Source: an uncultured Maribacter sp.
GTDB taxonomy: Bacteria; Bacteroidota; Bacteroidia; Flavobacteriales; Flavobacteriaceae
Reading direction: 5' to 3'
DNA: 64,000 bases
NCBI GenBank assembly: GCA_947493885.1
Contig: CANLTE010000003.1
Location: forward strand, 434,001 to 498,000
Shown here: piece by piece, positions 3,728-29,921 of the stretch
Numbering within the stretch: position 1 is the first letter of the stretch
Layout: the number at the start of each line of letters is the position of its first letter
The notes under the pieces: model-generated
The model's input: only the letters and a program-made list of their open reading frames with translations
The model's database searches: none
Told to the model about the DNA's origin: nothing
Position numbers and translations under genes: made by a program

Positions 3728-4981
3728 ATGGAAGGAGTTGTAACCACAGCCATAGAACAAACTGAACTTATTTCTGCAATTGATACTGTTTGGGTTTCAA
3801 TATGCGCAGCAATAATTTTTTTAATGGAAGGCGGTTTTGCTCTTCTGGAAGCTGGTTTTGTTCGAGCTAAAAACGCGATGAGTATTATAGCAAAGGTTAT
3901 TATTGATATCGTTTTTGGAGGATTAGCATTTTATGCAATTGGTTTTGGAATAGCATATGGAAACAGTAATGGTTGGTTTGCTTTTGATTTAGGAATCATG
4001 ACCGAAGATTTAGGTCTTGGATTAACTGTTTCTAATAAATTGTTTTGGTTTATTCAATTAGGTTTTGCTATTGCCGCTATCTCAATAGTTTCTGGAGCAG
4101 TAGCAGAAAGAATGAAAGTTTGGGCTTACGCGGTTTTTGTAGTGCTTTTTTGTGCAATAATGTATCCATTAGCGGCTAATTGGGTTTGGAATCCTAACGG
4201 CTGGCTTGCAGCTAGAGGATTTAATGATTTCGCAGGATCTGCTGCAGTACATGCAATGGGAGGTTTTGCCGCATTAGCAGCTGCTATAGTTTTAGGACCA
4301 CGAATGGGTAAATACGATAAAAACGGAGAACCTATTGCTATTCCTGGTCATAATTTACCTTTGGCTGCAGTAGGTGGATTTATATTATGGTTTGGATGGT
4401 TTGGATTTAATCCTGGTTCTACCCTTGGTGCGGTAGGTAATTGGGAGTTGATTGGCGTTATTGCCACGAATACTTTTTTAGCTTCTGCCGCAGGTGGTAT
4501 GTCAACTATTTTTTACACTTATTTCAAATACGGACAAATAGATATTACCATGACTATCAACGGTGTACTTGCAGGTTTAGTTGCCATTACCGCTGGATGT
4601 AATGTTGTTGAACCTGGCTCAGCTATTATTATTGGTTTAATTGCTGGAGTGTTAGTGGATGTTGCAGTATTATATATAGATAAAATAAAAATAGACGATC
4701 CTGTTGGAGCTATTGCCGTACATGGTGTAAATGGATTATTTGGTACTATAGCGGTTGGATTGTTTGCAACAGAAGATGGCTTACTTTTTGGAGGCGGTAC
4801 AGCTTTATTAATTACACAGGTTATTGGAGTTGTAGTAATAGCTATCTTTTCTTTTGTAATAACATATATTATTATGACCGTAATCAAAAAAACTATTGGT
4901 ATTAGAGTCAATAAATCAGAAGAAAGAGCCGGTATTGATGCTGTGACTTTTGGAGCTGAAGCATATACCACTTTTGAGTAA
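3728..4981 (+). CDS. amtB: Ammonium transporter AmtB
   Basis: This 417-residue Amt/Rh family inner-membrane channel has about eleven helices. The substrate-path signature residues are present: Asp167 in NDFAGSAAVHAMGG, and the twin histidines His175 and His332 (AVHGVNGLFGT). The GxxERMKVWAY segment is also typical. It conducts ammonium/ammonia into the cell. There is no cleaved signal peptide or C-terminal fusion domain. It is followed 27 bp later by a PII protein gene, the classic amtB-glnK pair in which PII plugs the channel when nitrogen is replete. Confidence 0.97.
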   Translation: MEGVVTTAIEQTELISAIDTVWVSICAAIIFLMEGGFALLEAGFVRAKNAMSIIAKVIIDIVFGGLAFYAIGFGIAYGNSNGWFAFDLGIMTEDLGLGLTVSNKLFWFIQLGFAIAAISIVSGAVAERMKVWAYAVFVVLFCAIMYPLAANWVWNPNGWLAARGFNDFAGSAAVHAMGGFAALAAAIVLGPRMGKYDKNGEPIAIPGHNLPLAAVGGFILWFGWFGFNPGSTLGAVGNWELIGVIATNTFLASAAGGMSTIFYTYFKYGQIDITMTINGVLAGLVAITAGCNVVEPGSAIIIGLIAGVLVDVAVLYIDKIKIDDPVGAIAVHGVNGLFGTIAVGLFATEDGLLFGGGTALLITQVIGVVVIAIFSFVITYIIMTVIKKTIGIRVNKSEERAGIDAVTFGAEAYTTFE

Positions 4982-5008
4982 AAAAATAGGAGAATATAAA
5001 TTATAGAA

Positions 5009-5350
5009 ATGAAAAAAATTGAAGCTATAATAAGGCCATCTAAATTAAAAATGGTACAGCGTGGTTTAAAAGAGGCAGGTATACCATGTATAACCGTAAT
5101 TCCTGTAAAAGGAACTGGCTTACAAAAAAGTTACTCTGAACGCTATCGTGGTACAGAGCAGTCCATGATTTTACAGAGTAGGGTGATGATTATGTGTATA
5201 GTAAGCGATATACATGTTCAAAAATGCATTAATGTTATAAAAGAAAATGCTTCAGAAGGACAAGTTGGTGATGGTAAAATTTTCATCTATAATGTCGAAG
5301 ATGCTATTCGCCTTAGTACAGGAGTACAAGGAAATGATGCTATTATATAA
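5009..5350 (+). CDS. glnK: Nitrogen regulatory protein P-II (GlnK-like), T-loop Tyr51 replaced by Gln
   Basis: This 113-residue PII protein starts MKKIEAIIRPSKL and carries a B-loop motif (GQVGDGKIFIYNVEDAIRLSTG) for ATP/ADP and 2-oxoglutarate binding. The T-loop reads SERYRGTEQSM: Tyr46 is kept but residue 51, the uridylylated tyrosine of enteric PII, is Gln. It cannot therefore be regulated by GlnD-type modification at that site. It is coupled to amtB (27-bp gap), so its likely role is reversible blocking of AmtB in response to ATP, ADP and 2-oxoglutarate alone. Confidence 0.95.
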   Translation: MKKIEAIIRPSKLKMVQRGLKEAGIPCITVIPVKGTGLQKSYSERYRGTEQSMILQSRVMIMCIVSDIHVQKCINVIKENASEGQVGDGKIFIYNVEDAIRLSTGVQGNDAII

Positions 5351-5426
5351 TTATTGATTGGGGCGTTCTAAATTAAAAAACACGAAGAGCTTTACGGAAG
5401 TTATTTGTAGTCATAACTATAGACAA

Positions 5427-6134
5427 TTAGCTATTAAGACTCCCAGAAATTGCCTTTTCAACGGCCATATAAGCATGTATTTTACCAGTATCAAATGTAG
5501 GCATTGAAACATCTTGTTCTTTAATAAGCATTGACAATTCTGTACAACCAAGAATTACTCCTTCTACTCCCACCCTATGTGATTTTTTAATAATTTTTAG
5601 GATACTTTGTTTTGAAGTATCTGTAAAAACACCTTTTAGCAATTCTTTGTATATAATATTATGAATACTATTTCTATCCCGTTCTGCGGGAACAATTACT
5701 TCTAATCCATAAGTTTTCTCTAACGTTTTTGTATAAAAATCTTTTTCCATGGTGTATTTAGTACCCAGCAACAATATTTTTTTCAAGTTCTTTTTTCTTA
5801 TGGCCTCTCCAGTAGCATTTGCGATATGTAAAAAGGGAACTGAAATATTCTTCATAATATCTTCACCAATAATATGAATTAAATTAGTACAAAGTACAAT
5901 CATATCCACCCCTGCTCTTTCCAATTGTTTTGCGCTTTTTATAACAATTCTACCTATAGCACTCCAATCATTTTTAAAGGTTAATTTTTCGATTTCCGCA
6001 AAGTCAACAGAAACCAATACTATTTTTGCAGAGTGCGAACCTTTTAAGGTTTCATTTACTTTTATATTTATTCGTTCGTAATAAAGCTTAGATGACTCCC
6101 AACCCATACCTCCTATTAATCCTATTGTTTTCAT
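5427..6134 (-). CDS. Aspartate/glutamate racemase family protein
   Basis: This 235-residue protein of the cofactor-independent Asp/Glu racemase superfamily starts TIGLIGGMGWESSKLYYE. Both catalytic cysteines are in their expected contexts: Cys82 (VLCTNLIH) and Cys197 (VILGCTELSML). It would interconvert L- and D-aspartate or a related amino acid in the cytoplasm. It is transcribed divergently from a MetR-like LysR gene 146 bp away, with a palindromic MetR-type box in between, so it is the probable target of that regulator. Exact substrate is not determinable from sequence. Confidence 0.9.
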   Translation of the reverse strand: MKTIGLIGGMGWESSKLYYERINIKVNETLKGSHSAKIVLVSVDFAEIEKLTFKNDWSAIGRIVIKSAKQLERAGVDMIVLCTNLIHIIGEDIMKNISVPFLHIANATGEAIRKKNLKKILLLGTKYTMEKDFYTKTLEKTYGLEVIVPAERDRNSIHNIIYKELLKGVFTDTSKQSILKIIKKSHRVGVEGVILGCTELSMLIKEQDVSMPTFDTGKIHAYMAVEKAISGSLNS

Positions 6135-12800: not shown

Positions 12801-12903
12801 ATGTAAAACATCCAAATTATTGATTATAAGGTGTTTTGGAAGCGTTTAATTTTAACAATACTGGCCTTTCGAAGGATAAAAAAACGATAGGGATAAGACC
12901 TTT

Positions 12904-13959
12904 TTAAGTTAATTGTTTTTTAAACTCACTAGGAGTCATTCCTTTTATTTTTTTAAAAGTAGTATTAAATGAAGATTTGGAATTGAAACCTACCTCTTTT
13001 GCAATAGCTAAAAGTGTATAATTTTGGTACGTTTTGTTTTGTAAACAAGAAACAAAATCTTCAACACGATAATGATTTAATAAATCTTGAAACCCAATAT
13101 TCATATGAACATTTAAAATTTCAGATAAATGCTGTCTTGGAATGTTAAGGCGTTTCGCAACATTATCCACGGTAAGTTTTTTGTTTTTAAATAACTTTTC
13201 TTCCGTCATTAAATATTTCAGTTCGTTTTTATAAAGTAAAACATCCTTTTGTTTTAAACTAGAGGTTTTGTATTTATCAGTATGCAAGCCAGATATGACT
13301 TCTTTAGGTACCATTATTAATTTATATAGTACATAGTAAAACAAAAAAATTGCAACTAATAATACGCCGTAACTATCTAGAAAAAAAGGTGATTCAAAGG
13401 ATTTTGTAAATAATACGGATACTTCATCAATTATAAAGATTGCAGTTAGTGGTATCGCAAAATATAGTAATTGATTTTCCTTTTTTGTTTTAATAATATG
13501 ATATACCGTATGGCATAAATACCCTATTAAAGAAATTTCCACAAGTATTTTTAATAATAAGGTAAAAGCATTAATTTCTAAAATACCCCATTCTTTTCCC
13601 GTAATTAACAAAACATTAATTACATAAGGTATAAAGTATATGTAATCTTTTGGATTAAAAACAGTATTACCTGATTTGTAATACCTAATGAATAAAAAGA
13701 AAAACGTAATTATTAAAGTATCGTGAAAAAAGTACCAATTAGCATTTTCAACAAACAGATTATAATTGTCGTCTCCAAGGGTATACAACATCACAGAAAC
13801 TACGCAGCCAAATAACAACCAAAAATTTGGTTTTTTATAGTACTTTTTATGCTTAAATACTATAAATAGTAAAAAAAAACCTTGTAACAAGGCAACAATT
13901 TGAATAGTCTTTAACATTGCGGGGTAGCTTAACAAGCTACTAAAATAAATTAAAATCAA
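12904..13959 (-). CDS. Membrane-bound AraC family transcriptional regulator
   Basis: This 351-residue protein has seven or so hydrophobic helices over residues 1-215 followed by a C-terminal AraC/XylS DNA-binding domain at about 245-350 (KLTVDNVAKRLNIPRQHLSEILN; TLLAIAKEVGFNSKSSFNTTFKK; GMTPSEFKKQL). This 7TM-AraC layout is common in Flavobacteriia and implies sensing at the inner membrane. The next gene downstream on the same strand is the GT2/GT39 pair, about 250 bp away and separated by the 34-bp inverted repeat, so it is a candidate regulator of that pair. The ligand is unknown. Confidence 0.88.
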   Translation of the reverse strand: MILIYFSSLLSYPAMLKTIQIVALLQGFFLLFIVFKHKKYYKKPNFWLLFGCVVSVMLYTLGDDNYNLFVENANWYFFHDTLIITFFFLFIRYYKSGNTVFNPKDYIYFIPYVINVLLITGKEWGILEINAFTLLLKILVEISLIGYLCHTVYHIIKTKKENQLLYFAIPLTAIFIIDEVSVLFTKSFESPFFLDSYGVLLVAIFLFYYVLYKLIMVPKEVISGLHTDKYKTSSLKQKDVLLYKNELKYLMTEEKLFKNKKLTVDNVAKRLNIPRQHLSEILNVHMNIGFQDLLNHYRVEDFVSCLQNKTYQNYTLLAIAKEVGFNSKSSFNTTFKKIKGMTPSEFKKQLT

Positions 13960-21119: not shown

Positions 21120-21632
21120 ATGAAAAAACTTATCTCTCTATCAATTTTAATGCTTCTAGTATTGACAGTTAATGCACAGGAAACTATACAAATTGTTTCC
21201 GCAGACATAGGGTTTGAGTTTATTGCTAAAAAAGTAAAGGGAACATTTTCAGGATTTCAATCTTCGTCAAAAATTAATTTAAACAACATAACAGAATCTG
21301 TTTTTGAAGGAACGGTAGATGTTGGCTCGTTGGATTCGGGAAATTTTTTAAGAAATTGGTCTCTAAAAAGTGACAAATATTTTAATGAAGATGACTATCC
21401 CAAAATAAAATTTAAAAGCACAAAAATTAAGGGCGATACCAACAATTTTGTTGTTCATGGTAATTTAACCATCAAAAACATTAGCCAGCCTATTGTTATA
21501 ACTTTTAAGAAAAACGGAAACAAACTAATTGGTAGCTCTACAGTATTGTCTTCTGACTATGACATTGTAATTATTAAAAAGAAAAAAGAAGATAACAAAG
21601 TAAATATTATCTTTACTTTTATAATAAAGTAA
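21120..21632 (+). CDS. YceI family protein (periplasmic lipid/isoprenoid-binding lipocalin-like)
   Basis: This 170-residue protein has a signal peptide (1-19, VNAQ) and a YceI domain covering the remainder: SADIGFEFIAKKVKGTFSGF, then VFEGTVDVGSLDSGN and LKSDKYFNEDDYPKIKFKS, NLTIKNISQPIVITF. The YceI fold is a lipocalin-like barrel that binds long-chain isoprenoids or amides in characterised members. It is convergent with the type III PKS operon, 22 bp from that operon's last gene. The lipid-binding fold next to a lipid-making operon is suggestive, but the genes lie on opposite strands. Confidence 0.9.
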   Translation: MKKLISLSILMLLVLTVNAQETIQIVSADIGFEFIAKKVKGTFSGFQSSSKINLNNITESVFEGTVDVGSLDSGNFLRNWSLKSDKYFNEDDYPKIKFKSTKIKGDTNNFVVHGNLTIKNISQPIVITFKKNGNKLIGSSTVLSSDYDIVIIKKKKEDNKVNIIFTFIIK

Positions 21633-21654
21633 CACATTATATCATAATATATAA

Positions 21655-22080
21655 TTAAATTTTAATCAATGATTTATATATTATTGATACTCCCCAATTT
21701 CCTAAAGGAAAGTATAACGCAAAAAACAAAGCCATACCCAAAGAAAAGTTGCGTATCCCAAAAAACTGGTCTAATAAATTATTTGGAAATGCGTAAGAAG
21801 ATTCTATAGCATACCCCCCAAATTCTAAGAAAGCCATTGCCACCAAACCATATGCATATTGCGCATGAAAAGGTAAGTTTCGTAACAACAAAGATATTGG
21901 CACCATATATAAAATATAACACGTAATTACCTGCCACCAATATGTAAATTTAGCGATACCCACTTCGATCCCAAACCAGTTCATACCTAGTCCCCAAAAA
22001 AAATAGACAATGCAATAAATTAAAACAAGTTTTTTTTCCACGTTTAATTTACTTTTAATCCAATCTATTATTTCACTCAT
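21655..22080 (-). CDS. Small membrane protein at the end of the type III PKS operon
   Basis: This 141-residue protein has four predicted helices (about 17-35, 45-65, 73-92 and 112-132), with aromatic-rich motifs MNWFGIEVGIAKFTYWWQV and FLEFGGYAIESSYAFP. Not a family I recognise. It begins 2 bp after the acyl carrier protein gene, so it belongs to the operon. It could anchor the biosynthetic enzymes, or transport or modify the lipid product in the membrane; this is inference from context. Confidence 0.75.
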   Translation of the reverse strand: MSEIIDWIKSKLNVEKKLVLIYCIVYFFWGLGMNWFGIEVGIAKFTYWWQVITCYILYMVPISLLLRNLPFHAQYAYGLVAMAFLEFGGYAIESSYAFPNNLLDQFFGIRNFSLGMALFFALYFPLGNWGVSIIYKSLIKI

Positions 22081-22082
22081 AA

Positions 22083-22334
22083 CTACTTATTTGACAATTT
22101 GGTTTCGATAATTTCAACTGCACTTTTTACCGTTTGCATTTGATCCATATCTTCATTTTCAAGCATAATATCAAAAGCATCTTCAACGTCCAATATAATA
22201 TCCACAAGGTTAGCTGAGTTGATATTAAGTTCATTAATAAAATGGCTTTCCTCTGTAATATCATTTACTGAAACATCTTCAGGAAGATACAATGCTATTA
22301 TTTCTTTCAATTTTTGATACTTTTCACTATTCAT
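22083..22334 (-). CDS. Acyl carrier protein dedicated to the type III PKS operon
   Basis: This 83-residue carrier protein is acidic with the four-helix ACP pattern (HFINELNINSANLVDIILD, VEDAFDIMLENEDM). The phosphopantetheine serine is Ser40 in an INSANL context, not the canonical DSL, which distinguishes it from housekeeping AcpP and suggests a specialised partner set. It sits between the ketosynthase (15-bp gap) and the membrane protein (2 bp). It would carry the growing acyl chain that feeds the polyketide synthase. Confidence 0.88.
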   Translation of the reverse strand: MNSEKYQKLKEIIALYLPEDVSVNDITEESHFINELNINSANLVDIILDVEDAFDIMLENEDMDQMQTVKSAVEIIETKLSNK

Positions 22335-22349
22335 CTATTTCTATATTTA

Positions 22350-23621
22350 TTAATCAATATATCTTTTAAAAAAAACACAAGCGTTAACATCTCCAAACCC
22401 AAAACTCGCCTTAGCAATTATATCAGCTTTAAAAGAAAACGTTTTTAACGGAATTTTTGTGGACGCTATCTGACTGGTAATATCTGGATGAATGTCTTCA
22501 CAATTTACATTACCAAAAATTTGATTATTGGCCAATTGCAAAACAACTCCAACACATTCAATACTACCTGCAGCTGCTAAACAATGCCCCACCATACTTT
22601 TAAATGAGTTTATATACGGAAAATTTACCTCTTTAAGGTCTAATGCTTCGCTCCAATTACTAATTTCAGCAGCATCTTTACTGGTTGCTGTTAAATGGCC
22701 ATTAATAGCATCTATTTCATGCGACTCTATATCCGCATTTTTCATTCCCTTTATTATGCATTGCTGAACGGCCTCATTATTTGGAGCAGTCATGGTTCCA
22801 CCACCACGTTGTCCACCACTATTTACATGCCCGCCAAGTACTTCTGCATATATTTTTGCGTTTCTATGCAATGCGCTTTCCAAACTCTCCATAACCAAAG
22901 CCCCAGCTCCACTCCCAGGAACAAAACCGCTAGCTGTTTCACTCATTGGCCTGCTAGCTTCACTTGGATTATTGTTATACTTTCTCGGTAAAATTCGCAT
23001 AGCATCAAAACCTCCCCAAACATAAGGACCACTATCACTACAACTACCAACTAACATTCGCTCTGCATTGCCAGATATAATTCTATCATAAGCCATTAAA
23101 ACACTTTCTGTACCCGTACTGCAAGCCGATGAATTTGTTGTCACCTGATTACCACAACCCAAAATACCCCCTAAATAAGCACTTATTCCACTCGCCATTG
23201 TTTGCATTACTGCTGTGCTTCCTAGTCTACGAACGTTATGTTCATCAACTTTATAAATAGCTTCTCTGAATTTATCTACACCTAATATTCCTGTACCAAA
23301 CAAAATACCACTATCCCAATCAGGAGTTCCTGCTGGTGATTTGGATAACCCAGCATCATTCCAAGCGTCAACACCTGCTATAACGCCATAAACCAAACCA
23401 CTTGCATTGAGCCCCCTTAATTGTAATGGCGTAAAATATTTTTCTTTAACACCTTCTTTTAGTAGAGGGTTTGCTGCAATTTGACATCCAAATTGAAGTT
23501 CCTTTAATTTAGGTTGAAATCGAACACCGCTTTTACCTTGCCTCAAAGCCTCCGAAAAGTCATTTAAACCAATACCATTAGGAGCACAAACTCCCATACC
23601 CGTAATAACTACTCTACGCAT
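22350..23621 (-). CDS. Beta-ketoacyl-ACP synthase (FabF/KAS II type)
   Basis: This 423-residue thiolase-fold condensing enzyme has the complete Cys-His-His triad: Cys167 (TNSSACSTGTES), His309 (INGHLTATSKDAAE, where most members read NAHGTST) and His346 (KSMVGHCLAAAGSIE). It extends an acyl-ACP by two carbons with malonyl-ACP. The altered His309 loop and its own ACP suggest a pathway-specific enzyme, not housekeeping FabF. The gene overlaps the dehydratase by 8 bp and lies in the middle of the type III PKS operon. Confidence 0.92.
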   Translation of the reverse strand: MRRVVITGMGVCAPNGIGLNDFSEALRQGKSGVRFQPKLKELQFGCQIAANPLLKEGVKEKYFTPLQLRGLNASGLVYGVIAGVDAWNDAGLSKSPAGTPDWDSGILFGTGILGVDKFREAIYKVDEHNVRRLGSTAVMQTMASGISAYLGGILGCGNQVTTNSSACSTGTESVLMAYDRIISGNAERMLVGSCSDSGPYVWGGFDAMRILPRKYNNNPSEASRPMSETASGFVPGSGAGALVMESLESALHRNAKIYAEVLGGHVNSGGQRGGGTMTAPNNEAVQQCIIKGMKNADIESHEIDAINGHLTATSKDAAEISNWSEALDLKEVNFPYINSFKSMVGHCLAAAGSIECVGVVLQLANNQIFGNVNCEDIHPDITSQIASTKIPLKTFSFKADIIAKASFGFGDVNACVFFKRYID

Positions 23622-24078
23622 TTTTATTTACTTTTAGCATTCCCGAAAGCTCTCCCTTACACAATAACTCTCTGTCGGTATTATACATTTTAACTCCACA
23701 CTTAAGCTTTCCAAACCTAAAAAATATTTTTTTTGACTCCACAATTACTTTTTCCCCAGGAAAAACAGGTTTATAAAAATCCATTTGCGAACTGCTAAAG
23801 CCAATTTGAAAATTATTGTCATCCAAATTAAAATCGGTTGCCTTTTGCATTAAATACACCCCTAAACACACCAAACCTATTTGAGCACAACACTCCGTTA
23901 AAATCACCCCAGGAGTAATCGGATTATCCTTAAAGTGCCCTTTATAAAAATCTGAATTTTCACTAAAAGTATACGTACCTTTTACTCCCACTTCGTTAAT
24001 TTCCAAAATCTCATCAACAAACAAAAATGGTTTTTGATATGGTAAACTTTTTAAAAAATTTTGATGACCCATAAGCAC
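23614..24078 (-). CDS. 3-hydroxyacyl-ACP dehydratase, FabZ-like hot-dog protein
   Basis: This 154-residue hot-dog fold protein starts LPYQKPFLFVDEILEI and has the FabZ active-site pair His48 (YKGHFKDNPITPGV) and Glu62 (VILTECCAQIG). It dehydrates beta-hydroxyacyl-ACP to trans-2-enoyl-ACP. It overlaps the ketosynthase gene by 8 bp, indicating coupled translation. A 99-bp AT-rich gap separates it from the reductase gene upstream in the operon; I found no perfect promoter there. Confidence 0.92.
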   Translation of the reverse strand: MLMGHQNFLKSLPYQKPFLFVDEILEINEVGVKGTYTFSENSDFYKGHFKDNPITPGVILTECCAQIGLVCLGVYLMQKATDFNLDDNNFQIGFSSSQMDFYKPVFPGEKVIVESKKIFFRFGKLKCGVKMYNTDRELLCKGELSGMLKVNKNA

Positions 24079-24177
24079 TTTTAGATTTGCCTAAAAAAAA
24101 TATACTAATACATTTATTATATTAAAAATCAAATAATTAAATAGTTTTACCAAAATAATAGATTTAATAATATGTTT

Positions 24178-24969
24178 TTAACGCAAACTCTCTCCTCCAT
24201 CCACTTTAATCACCGTTCCAGTCACCCATTTTGCCTCATCTTTTGATAATAAATAAACAACGTTAGCCACATCCTCGGGAGTCGTTAGCCTATTATTTGG
24301 ATTTCGACCCAAAGCATGTTTTTCTATTAAATCACTACCAGGAATCATCTTAAACGATTTTGTTAATGTAACACCAGCTTGAATACAATTTGCCTTAATA
24401 CCCAGAGATGCAAATTCCAAAGCTATACTTCTAGTTAATGACTCCAATGCTGATTTTGCAACGGAAACTGCTGCATAATTCTTAATCACCCTACTACTAC
24501 CCTCACTAGTAAAAGACAATACACGGGCATCCTCACTAAAAAGCTGCGCAACAATCAAATCCTTCACCCAATCATATAAACTAAAAGACATTGCTTGTGT
24601 TGTAATTTGAAAATCTTGATTAGACAAACCACCAATTCCATCTGTTTTCATTGGCTTCAAACTGCCCTTTGCAACACTATGCACAAAAACCTTTACAACA
24701 TCATTAGTTAAAAAACCATTTTTAATATCATTTATAATAGCACTTCGCCCATCCGCACTTAAGCCGTCTACGTTAAACGCCATTAACTTAATCCCTTGAG
24801 ACTTTATCTTTTTAAACTCTGATTCAATTTGAGGTAAATCAGACCTCCTATCCCTATGAACAATTATTATATTATAACCATGAGAAGCCATTTTATGTGC
24901 AGAAGCAAGCCCCAAGCCAGAACTCCCCCCTAAAACTAAAACCCACTGATTATCTCTTTTTATTTCCAT
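24178..24969 (-). CDS. SDR-family reductase, enoyl-ACP reductase (FabI/FabL)-like
   Basis: This 263-residue short-chain dehydrogenase/reductase has the nucleotide-binding GGSSGLGLAS at 14-23. The catalytic motif is Tyr165-(x)6-Lys172 (NYAAVSVAKSALE), the spacing of FabI/FabL enoyl reductases and not the Tyr-x3-Lys of ketoreductases. The C-terminal DVANVVYLLSKDEAKWVTGTV and VDGGESLR segments are also typical. It probably reduces enoyl-ACP, giving the operon its own ketosynthase, dehydratase and enoyl reductase, while ketoreduction would have to come from housekeeping FabG. A specialised ketoreductase with unusual spacing is the main alternative. Confidence 0.8.
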   Translation of the reverse strand: MEIKRDNQWVLVLGGSSGLGLASAHKMASHGYNIIIVHRDRRSDLPQIESEFKKIKSQGIKLMAFNVDGLSADGRSAIINDIKNGFLTNDVVKVFVHSVAKGSLKPMKTDGIGGLSNQDFQITTQAMSFSLYDWVKDLIVAQLFSEDARVLSFTSEGSSRVIKNYAAVSVAKSALESLTRSIALEFASLGIKANCIQAGVTLTKSFKMIPGSDLIEKHALGRNPNNRLTTPEDVANVVYLLSKDEAKWVTGTVIKVDGGESLR

Positions 24970-24982
24970 AATTTAATACAAG

Positions 24983-26038
24983 TTACCATTCCAACAATAC
25001 ACGCTGAGCTGAAAAACCAGGACCAAAACTCAATACCAACCCCTGCTCACCTTCTGCAATATTTTTTTCTAAAAACCGTTCCAAAACATACAATACGGTA
25101 ACACTACTCATATTTCCGTACAAACGCAAAACTTCACGGGTATCTTCTATATTCTTACCTAACTTCCCAAACAAATCATCAACAGTCTGAACTATTTTTC
25201 GACCACCTGGGTGAAATATCAAATGCCCAACCTTATCAATAGATGACTTATTTTTTTCAAGAAAAGGATGAATAATTTTTGGAAAATTACTTGCAATAGC
25301 CTCGGGAACAGATTGATCCAAAATCATTTTTAGACCCGTATTAGTCAAATCAAAACCCATAAGGTGAGTGGCATTTTTAAAATGAAACATTTCTTCACCA
25401 ATTATTTTAGGACCAACAGCATTATCCTCTGACGATAACAACACACAAGCTGCACCGTCTCCAAAAATTGCTGCGCTCACCATATTCGCCATGGAATAAT
25501 CATTTAATTGAAATGTAGCTGTGGGACTCTCAACAGCCACAAGAGCGATGCGCTTATCAGGATTAGACTTTAAAAAGTTGTGCGCATAAATTAAACCCGA
25601 AACACCCGCCGCACATCCCATTTCGGTCACCGGAAGCCGCATCACGTCATCTCTTAAACCTAGAGCATTTATAAGATAAGCATCTAAAGAAGGGATCATT
25701 ATACCTGTGCAACTAACTGTAATAATATAATCTAACGAAGAAGCCCCCCAGCTCGCTTGATTTAAAGCTTTTTCCAAAACCGAAATGCCCAATTTTTTAA
25801 CTTCGCGAACATAGATAGCATTTTTGTCTGCAAACGAGGCAGCATTAAAGACCTCTTCAATATTCATTATACCATACCGCTTATCAACTCCAGCTCCTTC
25901 AAAAATTTTAATCACCTTTCGACGAAAACGATCATCTTGATTTTGAAGCCATAAATTCACAAATGGTAAAATATCTTTAGTACTTCTGCTATATCTCGGA
26001 AGCTGTTTTGCTACAGTAACAATTTTAGTTTGAGTCAT
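24983..26038 (-). CDS. Type III polyketide synthase (chalcone/stilbene synthase superfamily)
   Basis: This 351-residue homodimeric condensing enzyme has all three catalytic residues: Cys142 (EMGCAAGVSGL), His276 (LIFHPGGRKIV) and Asn309 (LYGNMSSVTVLYVLE). The C-terminal SFGPGFSAQ loop (337-345) corresponds to the GFGPG loop of chalcone synthase. It would take a fatty acyl starter and condense it with malonyl-CoA, then cyclise to an alkylresorcinol or alkylpyrone. It sits 4 bp downstream of a methyltransferase gene and 13 bp upstream of an SDR reductase, embedded among fatty-acid elongation genes. Length and motifs are those of active bacterial enzymes. Confidence 0.93.
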   Translation of the reverse strand: MTQTKIVTVAKQLPRYSRSTKDILPFVNLWLQNQDDRFRRKVIKIFEGAGVDKRYGIMNIEEVFNAASFADKNAIYVREVKKLGISVLEKALNQASWGASSLDYIITVSCTGIMIPSLDAYLINALGLRDDVMRLPVTEMGCAAGVSGLIYAHNFLKSNPDKRIALVAVESPTATFQLNDYSMANMVSAAIFGDGAACVLLSSEDNAVGPKIIGEEMFHFKNATHLMGFDLTNTGLKMILDQSVPEAIASNFPKIIHPFLEKNKSSIDKVGHLIFHPGGRKIVQTVDDLFGKLGKNIEDTREVLRLYGNMSSVTVLYVLERFLEKNIAEGEQGLVLSFGPGFSAQRVLLEW

Positions 26039-26042
26039 ATAT

Positions 26043-26759
26043 TTATAGTCGCTTAACTTCCATTACCCATACATACCTAAAAGCCCATTTCCATTTAATA
26101 GAATGTTTTACTAATGGAATTTTACTAGCGTAATTAACAATGTCGGATTTTACAAAACCTCTGGAAATAGATATTAGTCCATCTATTTTAGCGGTTTTTG
26201 TTTTTATGTAAATTAATCTAAATAATTTAAAAAGATAATACGCAATTGAACTCCTATGCAAATCGTTCACCACAATCCCTAAGTCAACTATTTTCACCAA
26301 ATGGTTTGTAAATTTTAAAATATAATCATCCGTAAAGTGATGATACGTAAGGGTACTTATTGCAATATCTATATTCAAGTAAGATAAATCCGTTTTTAGC
26401 ACATCCTCTTCCAAAAACTCAATTTCAGCAAAATCCTTAGAAGCCTCTCTGCCTAAAATTAAAGCTTCTTTACTAAAATCCACGCCTACGAATTTAGCTT
26501 TAATACCTTGTTTTCTAAAAACCCTTGCCATTTGACGCAGCATCGCACCTTCAGCACAACCTACATCCACAATAACATATTCTTTTTTAGAATACTTGTT
26601 CACCAATTCTAAAACAGCATTTATTGTTATTGAATTCCCTCCAAGAACTCTGTTTACCCTATTTATGTCTTTAAGAACAACTTTCAATTCCGAAATACCA
26701 TCTTTAAAATTGTCCATTAGCTCAATATCTTCACTACGTTGTGACAATTTTTTCAGCAT
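26043..26759 (-). CDS. SAM-dependent methyltransferase of the type III PKS operon
   Basis: This 238-residue class I methyltransferase has SAM motif I YVIVDVGCAEGAMLRQMA (61-78) and motif II VGVDFS. Its N-terminal block (LSQRSEDIELMDN, then DINRVNRVLGG) resembles methyltransferases commonly found beside bacterial type III PKS genes. It lies 4 bp upstream of the PKS and overlaps the FAD oxidoreductase gene by 7 bp. It probably methylates the phenolic/pyrone product, as BpsB and SrsB do in Bacillus and Streptomyces; the position of methylation is unknown. Confidence 0.88.
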   Translation of the reverse strand: MLKKLSQRSEDIELMDNFKDGISELKVVLKDINRVNRVLGGNSITINAVLELVNKYSKKEYVIVDVGCAEGAMLRQMARVFRKQGIKAKFVGVDFSKEALILGREASKDFAEIEFLEEDVLKTDLSYLNIDIAISTLTYHHFTDDYILKFTNHLVKIVDLGIVVNDLHRSSIAYYLFKLFRLIYIKTKTAKIDGLISISRGFVKSDIVNYASKIPLVKHSIKWKWAFRYVWVMEVKRL

Positions 26760-27886
26760 ACCAATGGTTTTCCATGTGTTTGTTTTATCAAAAATTTTAA
26801 AAGCCTTGGTGACTTTCCAACAATAACTAACAGCAGATTAAACATCTTTGCATTTAACATCAACCTTTGAAATTGCCTTCCCATCCATAATCTCTTTTTA
26901 AAAACAGTACCCCATGATTTAGTATACTCTTTTTCCAATTGCTTACGAGAAAACGTTTTATTACTAAAAAATTCCGCAATTAAATCTGAAGCAATTTTCG
27001 CACTATGAATAGCCATAGCCATTCCATTTCCACATAAGGGATGTATTAAACCTGCCGTATCACCGCACATTATCACGTGTTCTTCAACTGGCTTTTTCTC
27101 ATGAAATGAAATTTGAGCAATACTCAATGGTTTTTCAAAAATCGGAATGGCGTTGTCTAGAAATTTAGATATGTAAAGATTTCTACTAACTACATGCTTA
27201 TTAAACTCCGTAACATTTTTAAACGACTTAAAACTATCATAGGAGGCCAAATAACAAAAATTAACATCACCCGTTTCTGTTTTAGACAACCCTCCGTAAC
27301 CACCATTAAAATTATGAAGCGCAACCAAATTATCTGGAAAATCATCTATTCTGTAATGACACTTTACCCCTAACCAAGAAGATTTCTGCTGTATAAACTT
27401 TCTTTTTAATTGTTTATCCAATACCGTCCTTTTTCCATAAGCACCAACAACAATACTTGAAGTATAACTTTCAATAGAGCTTATAAAAACCTCAAAATCA
27501 TTATTTTGAAAACTAACAGATGTTACATTTCTAAAAACAAAATCCACCCCACATTCTGAAGCTCTTTTATATAGTATATCATCAAAAGCATATCTACTTA
27601 TACCATACCCACCCTGTGGCAATCCAACCTCTAGTAAATTTCCGCTAACAGTACTTAACTGAAAAGTATCAATAAAAACAGCACCGTGTTCTATTAAATT
27701 TACACCTAGTTTTTCTAAATAAGGAGCCACCTCGTAAGATACATACTCACCACAAACCTTATGATGAGGATACGGCTGTTTCTCTAACACTAATACGGAA
27801 TGGTTTTCCAATGACAAATGTATGGCAGCAGTTAAGCCAGCGAGACCGCCGCCCACAATTATAACATCGTAAGAATTCTTTTTCAC
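26753..27886 (-). CDS. FAD-dependent oxidoreductase (geranylgeranyl-reductase / phenol hydroxylase-like)
   Basis: This 377-residue flavoprotein has the dinucleotide-binding motif YDVIIVGGGLAGLTAAIHLS near its N terminus, HKVCGEYVS after the second strand, and the FAD-ribityl motif CGDTAGLIHPLCGNGMAMAI. This group includes geranylgeranyl reductases and aromatic hydroxylases. I chose a GTG start at 27884-27886, just before YDVIIV; an ATG at 27979 would add 31 mostly hydrophobic residues and overlap the E1 gene by 35 bp. In context it may hydroxylate the resorcinol ring to a quinol/quinone (SrsC-like) or reduce double bonds. Confidence 0.85.
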   Translation of the reverse strand: MKKNSYDVIIVGGGLAGLTAAIHLSLENHSVLVLEKQPYPHHKVCGEYVSYEVAPYLEKLGVNLIEHGAVFIDTFQLSTVSGNLLEVGLPQGGYGISRYAFDDILYKRASECGVDFVFRNVTSVSFQNNDFEVFISSIESYTSSIVVGAYGKRTVLDKQLKRKFIQQKSSWLGVKCHYRIDDFPDNLVALHNFNGGYGGLSKTETGDVNFCYLASYDSFKSFKNVTEFNKHVVSRNLYISKFLDNAIPIFEKPLSIAQISFHEKKPVEEHVIMCGDTAGLIHPLCGNGMAMAIHSAKIASDLIAEFFSNKTFSRKQLEKEYTKSWGTVFKKRLWMGRQFQRLMLNAKMFNLLLVIVGKSPRLLKFLIKQTHGKPLVC

Positions 27887-27944
27887 GAAGAAAAGGTATA
27901 CAAAATAATAGATTTTAACAATTGAGAAAGTATCACCAAACCAA

Positions 27945-29921
27945 TTAATACGCCATAAGCTCTTTAAGCGCAGTAACAAATCTATCTTTTGGGAGATAAT
28001 TATTTTCCAAATTGTATGAAAACGGTATTGGTGTTTCCAAACTAGCTACACGCTTTACTGGAGCATCTAAAAACTCAAAACAATTTTCCATAACTAGAGC
28101 CGATATATCACTCGCGATGCCACCAAAAAGGCTATCTTCCTGCAAAATAATAAGTTTTCCTGTTTTTTTAACAGAACGGTAGATTGATTCCATATCTAAT
28201 GGCTGAAGTGTTCTTAAATCAATTAAATCAGCTCCAAACCCAGATACCTCTTCTAATGTTTCCAAAGCCCAATGCACACCCATTCCATATGAAACAATAG
28301 TTATATCTTCCCCTTGTCTTAAAACACTTGCAACACCCAACGGCAATGTATAATAACCAGTAGGAACATCTTGATATGAGCTACGATACAGTGCTTTATG
28401 TTCAAAGAACATTACAGGATTAACATCATTAATGGCGGTAGCCAACAACCCTTTAGCATCATACGGGAAAGCTGGGTAAACAACTTTTAAACCAGGGGTT
28501 TTAGTAAACCAGGCCTCATTGGTTTGTGAATGAAAAGGTCCAGCTGCAACACCTCCTCCACATGGCATACGAATTACAACATCTGCTTTTTCCGCCCAAC
28601 GATAATATGACTTTGCCAAATAATTAACAACAGGATTAAACCCCGTACTTGCAAAATCTGCAAACTGCATTTCCATAACGGCTTTCATTCCATTTATGGA
28701 CAACCCCATTGCGGCTGAAACAATTGCAGATTCACATATAGGAGTATTACGAACACGTTCTTTTCCAAATTGATTTACAAATCCGTCTGTAACCTTAAAA
28801 ACCCCACCATAATCAGCTATATCTTGCCCCAAAATCACCAAATTATCATGACGCTCCATTGATTGCTTTAACCCATTAGAAATCGCATCGACTAATCGAA
28901 TATTATCGCTACTCGAATTTGTTACAACATGCTTATAGTCAAATTTTTTAAACACATCATTTACTTCATTACTTAAACTTGAAACAATCTCAGGTTCGTC
29001 AAAAGATTTTTGCAAATTTTCATCAATTTCAACTGCTATCTCTTCTTTAAAAAGGGATTCCATTTCATCCGTTAATAACTCCAAATCTTTAAGATACTTT
29101 GTGTAGTTTTCCAAGGGATCTTTTGCTGCCCATTCATCCAAAATATTTTGAGGAATATATTTTGTTCCACTGGCCTCCTCATGACCACGCATTCTAAACG
29201 TTTTAAATTCCAATAGAACAGGTCTAGGGTTTTCTCTAATACTTTTTACAATTTCATTTACTTTAGCATATACCTCCAAAACGTTATTTCCTTCAATAAT
29301 ATGCCCCTCCATTCCATAACCAACCGCCCTATCAACCAGGTTTTTGCAACGGTATTGCTCTGATACAGGAGTTGAAAGCCCGTATCCATTGTTTTCTATA
29401 CAAAAAAGCACAGGTAAATCCCAAACAGCAGCAACATTAAGCGCCTCATGAAAGTCCCCCTCACTGGTTCCTCCTTCACCCGTAAACACGGCAGTAACTA
29501 ATTTCTTGCTTTTTAATTTATTAGCAAGTGCAATCCCGTCTGCAACGCCAAGTTGCGGTCCCAAATGAGAAATCATTCCAACAATATTATACTCTTGCGT
29601 TCCAAAATGAAAACTACGGTCTCTACCTTTAGTAAATCCACTGGCCTTACCCTGCCATTGTGCAAATAATCTATACAATGGTATTTTTCTTGTGGTAAAC
29701 ACTCCTAAATTGCGATGCATTGTTAGAATGTACTCTTCGTTTTTCATTGCCATGGTTACGCCAACCGAAATAGCCTCTTGCCCTATACCGCTAAACCATT
29801 TGGATATTTTTCCTTGACGTAAAAGAATAAGCATTTTTTCCTCTATCATTCTTGGCTTAAGCATTGCTTTATACAATGCAATTAACGTATCACCACCATA
29901 ATCGAAACCAGTATAGTTCAT
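27945..29921 (-). CDS. Alpha-keto acid dehydrogenase E1, alpha-beta fusion (branched-chain type)
   Basis: This 658-residue protein joins an E1-alpha part (about 1-330) to an E1-beta part (about 335-658, starting NIRLVDAISNGLKQSMERHD). The thiamin-diphosphate motif is GEG(148-150)...NN(177-178), with Glu in place of the usual Asp. It decarboxylates branched-chain or related 2-oxo acids and passes acyl groups to an E2 lipoyl protein that is not encoded here. It is the first gene of the operon, 59 bp ahead of the FAD enzyme, and could supply iso- or anteiso-branched starters. It may also be the cell's general branched-chain E1. Confidence 0.9.
   Translation of the reverse strand: MNYTGFDYGGDTLIALYKAMLKPRMIEEKMLILLRQGKISKWFSGIGQEAISVGVTMAMKNEEYILTMHRNLGVFTTRKIPLYRLFAQWQGKASGFTKGRDRSFHFGTQEYNIVGMISHLGPQLGVADGIALANKLKSKKLVTAVFTGEGGTSEGDFHEALNVAAVWDLPVLFCIENNGYGLSTPVSEQYRCKNLVDRAVGYGMEGHIIEGNNVLEVYAKVNEIVKSIRENPRPVLLEFKTFRMRGHEEASGTKYIPQNILDEWAAKDPLENYTKYLKDLELLTDEMESLFKEEIAVEIDENLQKSFDEPEIVSSLSNEVNDVFKKFDYKHVVTNSSSDNIRLVDAISNGLKQSMERHDNLVILGQDIADYGGVFKVTDGFVNQFGKERVRNTPICESAIVSAAMGLSINGMKAVMEMQFADFASTGFNPVVNYLAKSYYRWAEKADVVIRMPCGGGVAAGPFHSQTNEAWFTKTPGLKVVYPAFPYDAKGLLATAINDVNPVMFFEHKALYRSSYQDVPTGYYTLPLGVASVLRQGEDITIVSYGMGVHWALETLEEVSGFGADLIDLRTLQPLDMESIYRSVKKTGKLIILQEDSLFGGIASDISALVMENCFEFLDAPVKRVASLETPIPFSYNLENNYLPKDRFVTALKELMAY

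Follow-up and report, generated by a model that had tools for sequence, protein, structure and literature searches.

A Type III Polyketide Synthase Island with a Discrete Elongation Cassette, Predicted to Make an Alkyl-Phenol Lipid, in Maribacter and Other Bacteroidota

Introduction

Phenolic lipids or alkylquinones are formed in some bacteria from operons in which a type III polyketide synthase (PKS) gene is accompanied by a methyltransferase gene, as in bpsAB of Bacillus; SrsB and BpsB are both isoprenylcysteine-carboxyl-methyltransferase (ICMT)-like proteins. We compare here with the closest described systems an island of genes surrounding a type III PKS gene from an uncultured Maribacter sp., located within a 64,000-nucleotide stretch of contig CANLTE010000003.1 (the whole stretch is termed the window). 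The island encodes a flavin adenine dinucleotide (FAD)-dependent oxidoreductase, a methyltransferase (MT) and the PKS, followed by an elongation cassette of a reductase, a dehydratase, a beta-ketoacyl-acyl carrier protein synthase (KAS) and an acyl carrier protein (ACP), and a small membrane protein. The published systems are cited from the accessible portions of the papers named.

The operons srsABC and pkqABC resemble the island in combining PKS, methyltransferase and oxidoreductase genes for phenolic lipids or alkylquinones, the Streptomyces and mycobacterial pkq operons making polyketide quinones (PMC9927152). They and bpsAB differ from it in that the accessible texts describe no dedicated elongation cassette for them. 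An earlier note on this DNA had matched the island to srsABC and bpsAB; the shared PKS, methyltransferase and flavoprotein functions stand, but the likeness is loose, since the window methyltransferase is a class I S-adenosylmethionine (SAM)-dependent enzyme. In gene content the island is nearer to the trios of Planctomycetota and to hidABC for hierridin, where a methyltransferase, an oxidoreductase and a type III PKS are likewise found in one operon and the PKSs make alkylresorcinols (PMC10896814, PMC8086630). Selection of six PKSs for expression in Corynebacterium led to pentadecyl- and heptadecylresorcinols, and a gene for a lipid/isoprenoid-binding protein accompanies one operon (PMC10896814); an acyl-ACP starter was proposed for HidC (PMC8086630). 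These trios are from other phyla, and the accessible texts mention no KAS, dehydratase or ACP gene with them.

A dedicated chain-making fatty acid synthase (FAS) and a phosphopantetheinyl transferase (PPTase) are encoded along with a type III PKS by arsABCD of Azotobacter vinelandii, as chain-making enzymes are here; ArsA makes C23-C25 chains and its carrier domain can hand the acyl group straight to the PKS (PMC4824345, PMC6274091), and ArsD is the PPTase (PMC4824345). ArsA is a type I FAS, whereas the window operon has discrete KAS, dehydratase, reductase and ACP genes; the window PKS is accompanied by a methyltransferase and a flavoprotein; and the PPTase gene is outside the window operon, though inside the operon of many relatives. 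The DarA-DarB (flexirubin) systems share with the island a resorcinol ring, if its product is as predicted below, and a related cassette lies beside DarB in 16 of the loci that we fetched; there, however, the ring is formed by DarB, a KAS III-like protein distantly within the type III PKS superfamily, together with DarA (PMC3992019).

Type III PKSs amounted to 9% of predicted clusters in one survey of Flavobacteriaceae (PMC7440613) and to 10.74% in a second (PMC10734526), and the accessible text of each names no product and does not describe this anatomy. A literature search without subscription papers and preprints, covering the accessible text of its hits, found no description of the gene arrangement, none of a cassette shared with DarA-DarB, and no characterized product for the arrangement, in line with the earlier note. 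Type III PKS pathways to phenolic lipids are already known as a kind; what is new in the one predicted here is a chain-maker of discrete type II enzymes, whose relatives are also found beside DarA-DarB.

Results

The genes running from the FAD oxidoreductase to the small membrane protein form an island, to which a convergent YceI-like gene probably belongs; we consider it reasonably likely that the island makes an alkyl-phenol lipid, the cassette feeding the starter chain to the PKS as an acyl-ACP. The gene set, the intact catalytic residues and the co-inheritance of the genes can be read directly from the DNA. Nine minus-strand open reading frames (ORFs) are present in window 21655-29921, as the earlier note had it, and their family assignments agree with Pfam and NCBIfam matches (Table 1); none shows any sign of decay. 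From the FAD gene to the membrane protein gene the ORFs overlap or are spaced by 2-15 bp; only the reductase and dehydratase genes are farther apart, at 99 bp.

Gene order was compared in two sets of relatives (which may overlap in species), where genes were called with our own hidden Markov models (HMMs) and score thresholds. When species genomes were scanned for the PKS, 68 loci were found, most of them from Flavobacteriaceae (Maribacter, Zobellia, Salegentibacter, Polaribacter, Tenacibaculum, Flavobacterium), plus one from Pedobacter and one from a Chitinophagaceae bin; ten were set aside for a short flank. The order and strand of FAD-MT-PKS-FabZ-KAS-ACP were kept in 55 of the remaining 58, and no cluster ACP was called in the three exceptions (L055, L057, L066). 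In a sample of 395 genomes from across the phylum, a strong PKS clade (E ≤1.1e-188; next match 4.5e-76) was found in 33, 30 of which fall among the 41 listed members of the window's family; 20 of these 33 loci were fetched, and the six core genes were in order in 20/20. A profile built on the cassette KAS scored at least 724 bits in exactly the same 33 genomes, with KAS and PKS within 3 kb by coordinates; the next five genomes scored 530-614 bits, and their KAS genes were not adjacent to a type III PKS. Within the genus only 2/8 genomes have the PKS. The same-gene-order search proposed in the earlier note as a check therefore supports its view of a conserved operon of PKS, methyltransferase, flavoprotein, elongation module and dedicated ACP, and fortuitous adjacency was rejected from the conserved order (55/58 and 20/20) and the co-occurrence of PKS and KAS.

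The remaining genes were less constant. The reductase was called in 47/58 loci of the first set and 9/20 of the phylum set, an operon PPTase in 16/58 and 16/20, the membrane protein in 17/58 and 3/20, and the YceI-like ORF, a frequent but not constant companion, in 17/58 and 5/20. A locus of family f3 (L212) groups with one of family f1 (L159) in both the PKS and KAS trees (100/99 each), and this suggests that the whole cluster may have moved between families.

The PKS has both chalcone-synthase-like domains, N and C (PF00195 and PF02797), above cut-off, and the Cys142-His276-Asn309 triad recognized in the earlier note is intact and invariant in 33/33 aligned relatives. Phe229 and Met238 are likewise invariant (33/33). 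The former aligns with a Trp of PKS11, which has a solved structure, and by way of this alignment lies at the inferred place of ArsB Trp281; Met238 follows nine residues later, the spacing of Gly284 and Met293 in ArsC. Trp281 of ArsB versus Gly284 of ArsC decides between aldol and lactone closure, with Met293 nearby (PMC6274091, accessible text). The aromatic residue thus points weakly to aldol closure and an alkylresorcinol as likelier than a pyrone; the indication is weak because PKS11 is named an alpha-pyrone synthase and because the ArsB/ArsC place was inferred and not directly aligned (neither ArsB nor ArsC is named among the 60 listed of 112 matched structure chains). PKS11 is also what favors an alkyl alpha-pyrone, decorated by the flavoprotein and the methyltransferase, in place of a phenol, since the closest solved structures among the matches listed are those of PKS11. 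We hold a pyrone to be unlikely, given an aromatic residue at the inferred Trp281 place in all 33 sequences and the pairing of a related cassette with a resorcinol-forming system, described below.

The cassette KAS is distinct from the housekeeping enzyme. Its Cys167, His309 and His346 are found in 29/29 aligned sequences, and it is 29-32% identical to L175/L176, with which it was compared as same-genome FabF. In a tree of 35 rows, the outgroup comprised two FabF sequences and six further KAS-like proteins of the window genome, taken from its ten other KAS-domain hits (four outgroup rows are long and of unsure placement). The 27 cassette KAS sequences formed one clade (100/100) apart from these and did not group with FabF of housekeeping fatty acid synthesis. 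Groups within the clade corresponded to the partner genes: PKS-linked (99/98), DarB-linked (90/86; L203 and L205 bear this label although no DarB was seen adjacent) and GNAT-linked (99/97). The dehydratase has a FabA-like Pfam domain above cut-off and matches NCBIfam FabZ at 68 bits, under the cut-off of 113; the reductase, a short-chain dehydrogenase/reductase (SDR), matches FabL best in NCBIfam at 143 bits, under the cut-off of 328, and its Tyr165 and Lys172 (YX6K) are invariant in 63/63 aligned sequences.

The ACP serine is invariant in 25/25 sequences. The surrounding motif SA[NHT]L[VI]D was found in 89/93 PKS-linked and 15/16 DarB-linked ACPs, the sixteenth having SANMVD, and also in the ACPs of L080, L203, L205, L227 and L237; it was in 0/4 GNAT-linked ACPs and in none of L233, L235, L236, L239 and L240, the last three of which have no ordinary ACP call. 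These counts omit L055, L057 and L183, along with any locus where no ACP or no KAS was called, and they are not independent, many rows being close relatives. No PPTase gene is in the window operon; two PPTase matches occur elsewhere in the same genome.

Many relatives of the cassette that score lower with the KAS profile lie beside a different ring-forming system. In two of the five genomes at 530-614 bits, at L197 and L198, a reductase-FabZ-KAS-ACP-PPTase set is divergent from DarA-DarB-DarH; DarB matched NCBIfam at 634.8 and 614.7 bits, respectively (cut-off 550), and DarH of L197 at 453.7 (cut-off 300). Apart from these three genes, DarB and DarH of the DarB-linked loci were called with our own HMMs, and DarA was named by position, the L197 gene so named having no NCBIfam match. 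In family f3 (251 genomes) the KAS scored at least 733 bits in 45 genomes and 589-619 bits in 22. All ten high-scoring loci fetched (of the 45; G087 and G145 had been obtained earlier) were FAD-MT-PKS-FabZ-KAS-ACP-PPTase clusters without a reductase; among ten lower-scoring loci fetched (of the 22; G106 had been obtained earlier), eight were beside DarA-DarB-DarH and L203 and L205 stood alone. In family f4, 20 of 195 genomes had a match; the 5/5 at 721 bits or more were PKS clusters with a reductase, and the 14 lower-scoring loci newly fetched comprised six beside DarA-DarB, three cut by contig ends and five with other neighbors. In sum, 16/26 lower-scoring loci of f3 and f4, L197 and L198 included, were DarB-linked, the reductase-FabZ-KAS-ACP cassettes lying divergently beside DarA-DarB-DarH. 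The window genome has its own DarB (663.6 bits, cut-off 550) in a separate flexirubin/dialkylresorcinol-type locus, L183 on contig C5; the cassette was not seen at L183, nor was DarB found in the window operon with Pfam and NCBIfam.

The DarB-adjacent cassettes are the best evidence for the role that we propose for the elongation module, which looks like a separable and interchangeable part, its relatives in other bacteria being next to DarB. Other Bacteroidia have FAD-MT-PKS trios that lack the cassette (L148, L149, L151, L152); ring making and tailoring can therefore, as judged from gene content, stand alone, and the cassette is an added chain-maker. These trios also lend something to a different explanation, that the PKS draws on housekeeping acyl-CoA or acyl-ACP while the cassette makes a second chain, attached later to the phenol or used for another lipid, as does the occurrence of remoter cassette relatives next to genes with weak GNAT and GT2 matches. 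We find a second chain quite unlikely: there is no acyltransferase among the order-conserved genes, a cassette KAS of at least 724 bits always accompanies the PKS clade in the phylum sample, and DarB, with which a relative of the cassette is paired, is a condensing enzyme acting on acyl thioesters.

Other surroundings were seen for the remoter cassette relatives, where the names GNAT, GT2, AONS and DarA rest on below-cut-off matches or on position. The related set of L199-L201, the other three of the five genomes at 530-614 bits, stands with genes called GNAT and GT2 on weak matches; FabZ-KAS-ACP with a GNAT-like gene was observed in L199-L201 and L241, with a GT2-like gene in three of them (below curated cut-offs), and L199 has a serine-palmitoyltransferase-like gene, also below its curated cut-off, about 4 kb away. 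In family f24 the KAS was found in 4/92 genomes, all four with a GNAT-like gene. Such GNAT-linked sets may serve to provide acyl chains for some other lipid. L236, L239 and L240 have FabZ, a tandem pair of cassette-like KAS genes and, close by, SDR genes of FabI/FabG-like type, with no DarA-DarB or PKS at the locus.

The two predicted tailoring enzymes were examined by motif, family and fold. The flavoprotein has GxGxxG, CGE and GD motifs in 30/30 rows, and the WxWxIP-type motif typical of flavin halogenases is absent from all 30, which disfavors a typical halogenase without being proof. Its AlphaFold2 (AF2) model (predicted local distance difference test, pLDDT, 89.8) matched by Foldseek to Bmp2, PltA, 3-hydroxybenzoate 6-hydroxylase and geranylgeranyl-reductase (GGR)-like proteins. 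The methyltransferase matched class I SAM families only in Pfam and NCBIfam, with no ICMT-type match in either. L061 has a second class I methyltransferase gene after the ACP (12843-13538), which suggests that the product may be doubly methylated in that lineage.

The fused 2-oxoacid dehydrogenase E1 gene, included in the operon by the earlier note, does not belong to the conserved unit despite being contiguous with it in the window. It is present as a single full-length copy in 8/8 genus genomes, six of them without the PKS (69-75% identity in the six), and its right-hand neighbors are retained in 6/6 of these. Both flanks can be seen at five of the PKS-less sites; there the left-hand genes come next, directly or after one short ORF, and no PKS cluster or YceI-like gene was found between them and E1 (5/5). 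Among the 58 full-flank relatives, counting only genes above 1000 bits, a full-length same-strand E1 was within 9 kb in 41, and a lipocalin-like gene and an OmpA gene separated it from the FAD gene in 39 of these 41; none was called within 9 kb in 17/58, of which two are borderline (L066, where E1 is fragmented, and L032, where a partial copy lies at the edge). The L066 E1, from a metagenome-assembled genome (MAG), is split into several frames at 3748-5760, either by decay or by assembly error. Because E1 stays in PKS-less genomes and its place near the island varies in relatives, we take the unit to be the eight genes that run from FAD to the membrane protein gene; the convergent YceI-like gene probably belongs to it as well. 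That E1 and the FAD gene adjoin on one strand, so that co-transcription is possible, speaks for E1 as a functional member that supplies the pathway with branched starters; its persistence with the same right-hand genes in the 6/6 PKS-less genomes, and its separation from the island or absence near it in relatives, make this highly improbable, and E1 was rejected as a pathway enzyme.

At this junction the TTG given as the start of the FAD gene falls within E1; a GTG at 27886 is a better fit to relatives and leaves a gap of 58 bp. An exact 15-mer, AAATCTATTATTTTG, occurs twice only in the window, at 27901-27915 and 24151-24165 (minus strand), i.e., immediately before the FAD start and within the reductase-dehydratase gap; it is possibly a shared control element, or it could be due to chance.

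At the other end, the membrane protein had no Pfam or NCBIfam match and was found in 5/395 genomes of the phylum sample, all five PKS-positive. Its AF2 model (pLDDT 80.7) is helical, and the best PDB match in Foldseek had an E value of 1.4, i.e., no fold match. The YceI-like gene is missing along with the PKS island at the 5/5 two-flank sites described above; YceI proteins bind isoprenoid lipids, and secretion of this one was judged by eye from its N-terminus.

Table 1. Positions and assignments of the island genes and of the genes that flank them in the window.
Feature	Coordinates	Strand	Length (aa)	Remarks
YceI-like protein gene, convergent	21120..21632	+		PF04264, 77.7 bits; probable island accessory
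Small membrane protein	21655..22080	-	141	Helical model, without known family or fold match
Acyl carrier protein	22083..22334	-	83	PP-binding; phosphopantetheine Ser40 in INSANLVD motif
FabF-like beta-ketoacyl-ACP synthase, cassette-specific clade	22350..23621	-	423	C167, H309, H346
FabZ-like 3-hydroxyacyl-ACP dehydratase	23614..24078	-	154	FabA-like Pfam domain above cut-off
Enoyl-ACP reductase-like SDR (FabL-like; FabL/FabI-like)	24178..24969	-	263	Y165-X6-K172; FabL best NCBIfam match
Type III polyketide synthase	24983..26038	-	351	PF00195 + PF02797; C142, H276, N309
Class I SAM-dependent methyltransferase	26043..26759	-	238	Methyltransf_31/25/11; order conserved
FAD-dependent oxidoreductase	26753..27886	-		Geranylgeranyl-reductase / flavin monooxygenase / halogenase superfamily; likely ring-tailoring
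Fused 2-oxoacid dehydrogenase E1 alpha-beta	27945..29921	-	658	Core gene abutting island; judged outside pathway unit

Discussion

From the gene set we infer the product, the hand-over by the ACP, and the closure, oxidation and methylation of the ring, as follows. Housekeeping enzymes would supply the acyl-ACP primer and 3-ketoacyl reduction; the cassette KAS and FabZ-like dehydratase, with the FabL-like reductase where present, would lengthen the chain on the cassette ACP, charged by a PPTase that in many relatives is encoded in the operon. The type III PKS would take the chain directly from this ACP, add malonyl units and close the ring, by the aldol route to an alkylresorcinol more probably than to a pyrone; the flavoprotein and methyltransferase would then oxidize and methylate the ring to give a methoxy-phenol or a quinone, and the YceI-like and membrane proteins may serve to bind the lipid or to transport it within the envelope. 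A tailored alkyl-phenol lipid, the best guess of the earlier note, is still the best reading of the gene set.

Several points weigh against this pathway. The PKS is only 27-33% identical to the eight other type III PKSs compared, and PKS11, the closest solved structure among the matches listed, has a Trp at the Phe229 place yet carries the pyrone synthase name. The flavoprotein fold is common to hydroxylases, halogenases and geranylgeranyl-reductase-like proteins, so that it does not fix the reaction. The cassette has no ketoreductase or KAS III gene, and the reductase is absent from 11/58 and 11/20 loci and from the 10/10 f3 PKS clusters fetched; because it is absent in many relatives it appears to be dispensable there, and this may represent either a housekeeping enzyme standing in for it or double bonds that are kept in the chain. 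Of the 26 lower-scoring loci of f3 and f4, five have other neighbors, two stand alone and three are cut by contig ends; since some of these relatives have other neighbors or stand alone, the cassette family is not linked to resorcinols only.

We give even chances to a broader proposal, that the cassette is a portable starter-supply unit of Bacteroidota, descended from one ancestor and with a specialized ACP (the INSANLVD helix), which became joined to the type III PKS and to DarA-DarB, with cousins joined to other lipid end-enzymes; the making of the chain and the making of the ring would then be separable, and recognition would lie with the ACP.

Many Bacteroidota carry a set of genes that probably builds a fatty chain on a carrier of its own and passes it to an enzyme that makes a phenol ring. 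If this is true, much of the type III PKS class of Flavobacteriaceae may represent a single conserved route to phenolic lipids, in which the source of the starter can be predicted; a swappable type II chain-maker common to type III PKS and DarA-DarB would be a clean system for the study of ACP partner choice, and the cassette would offer a handle on the length of phenolic-lipid chains. A phenol or quinone in the envelope of many Bacteroidota could affect redox or membrane physiology.

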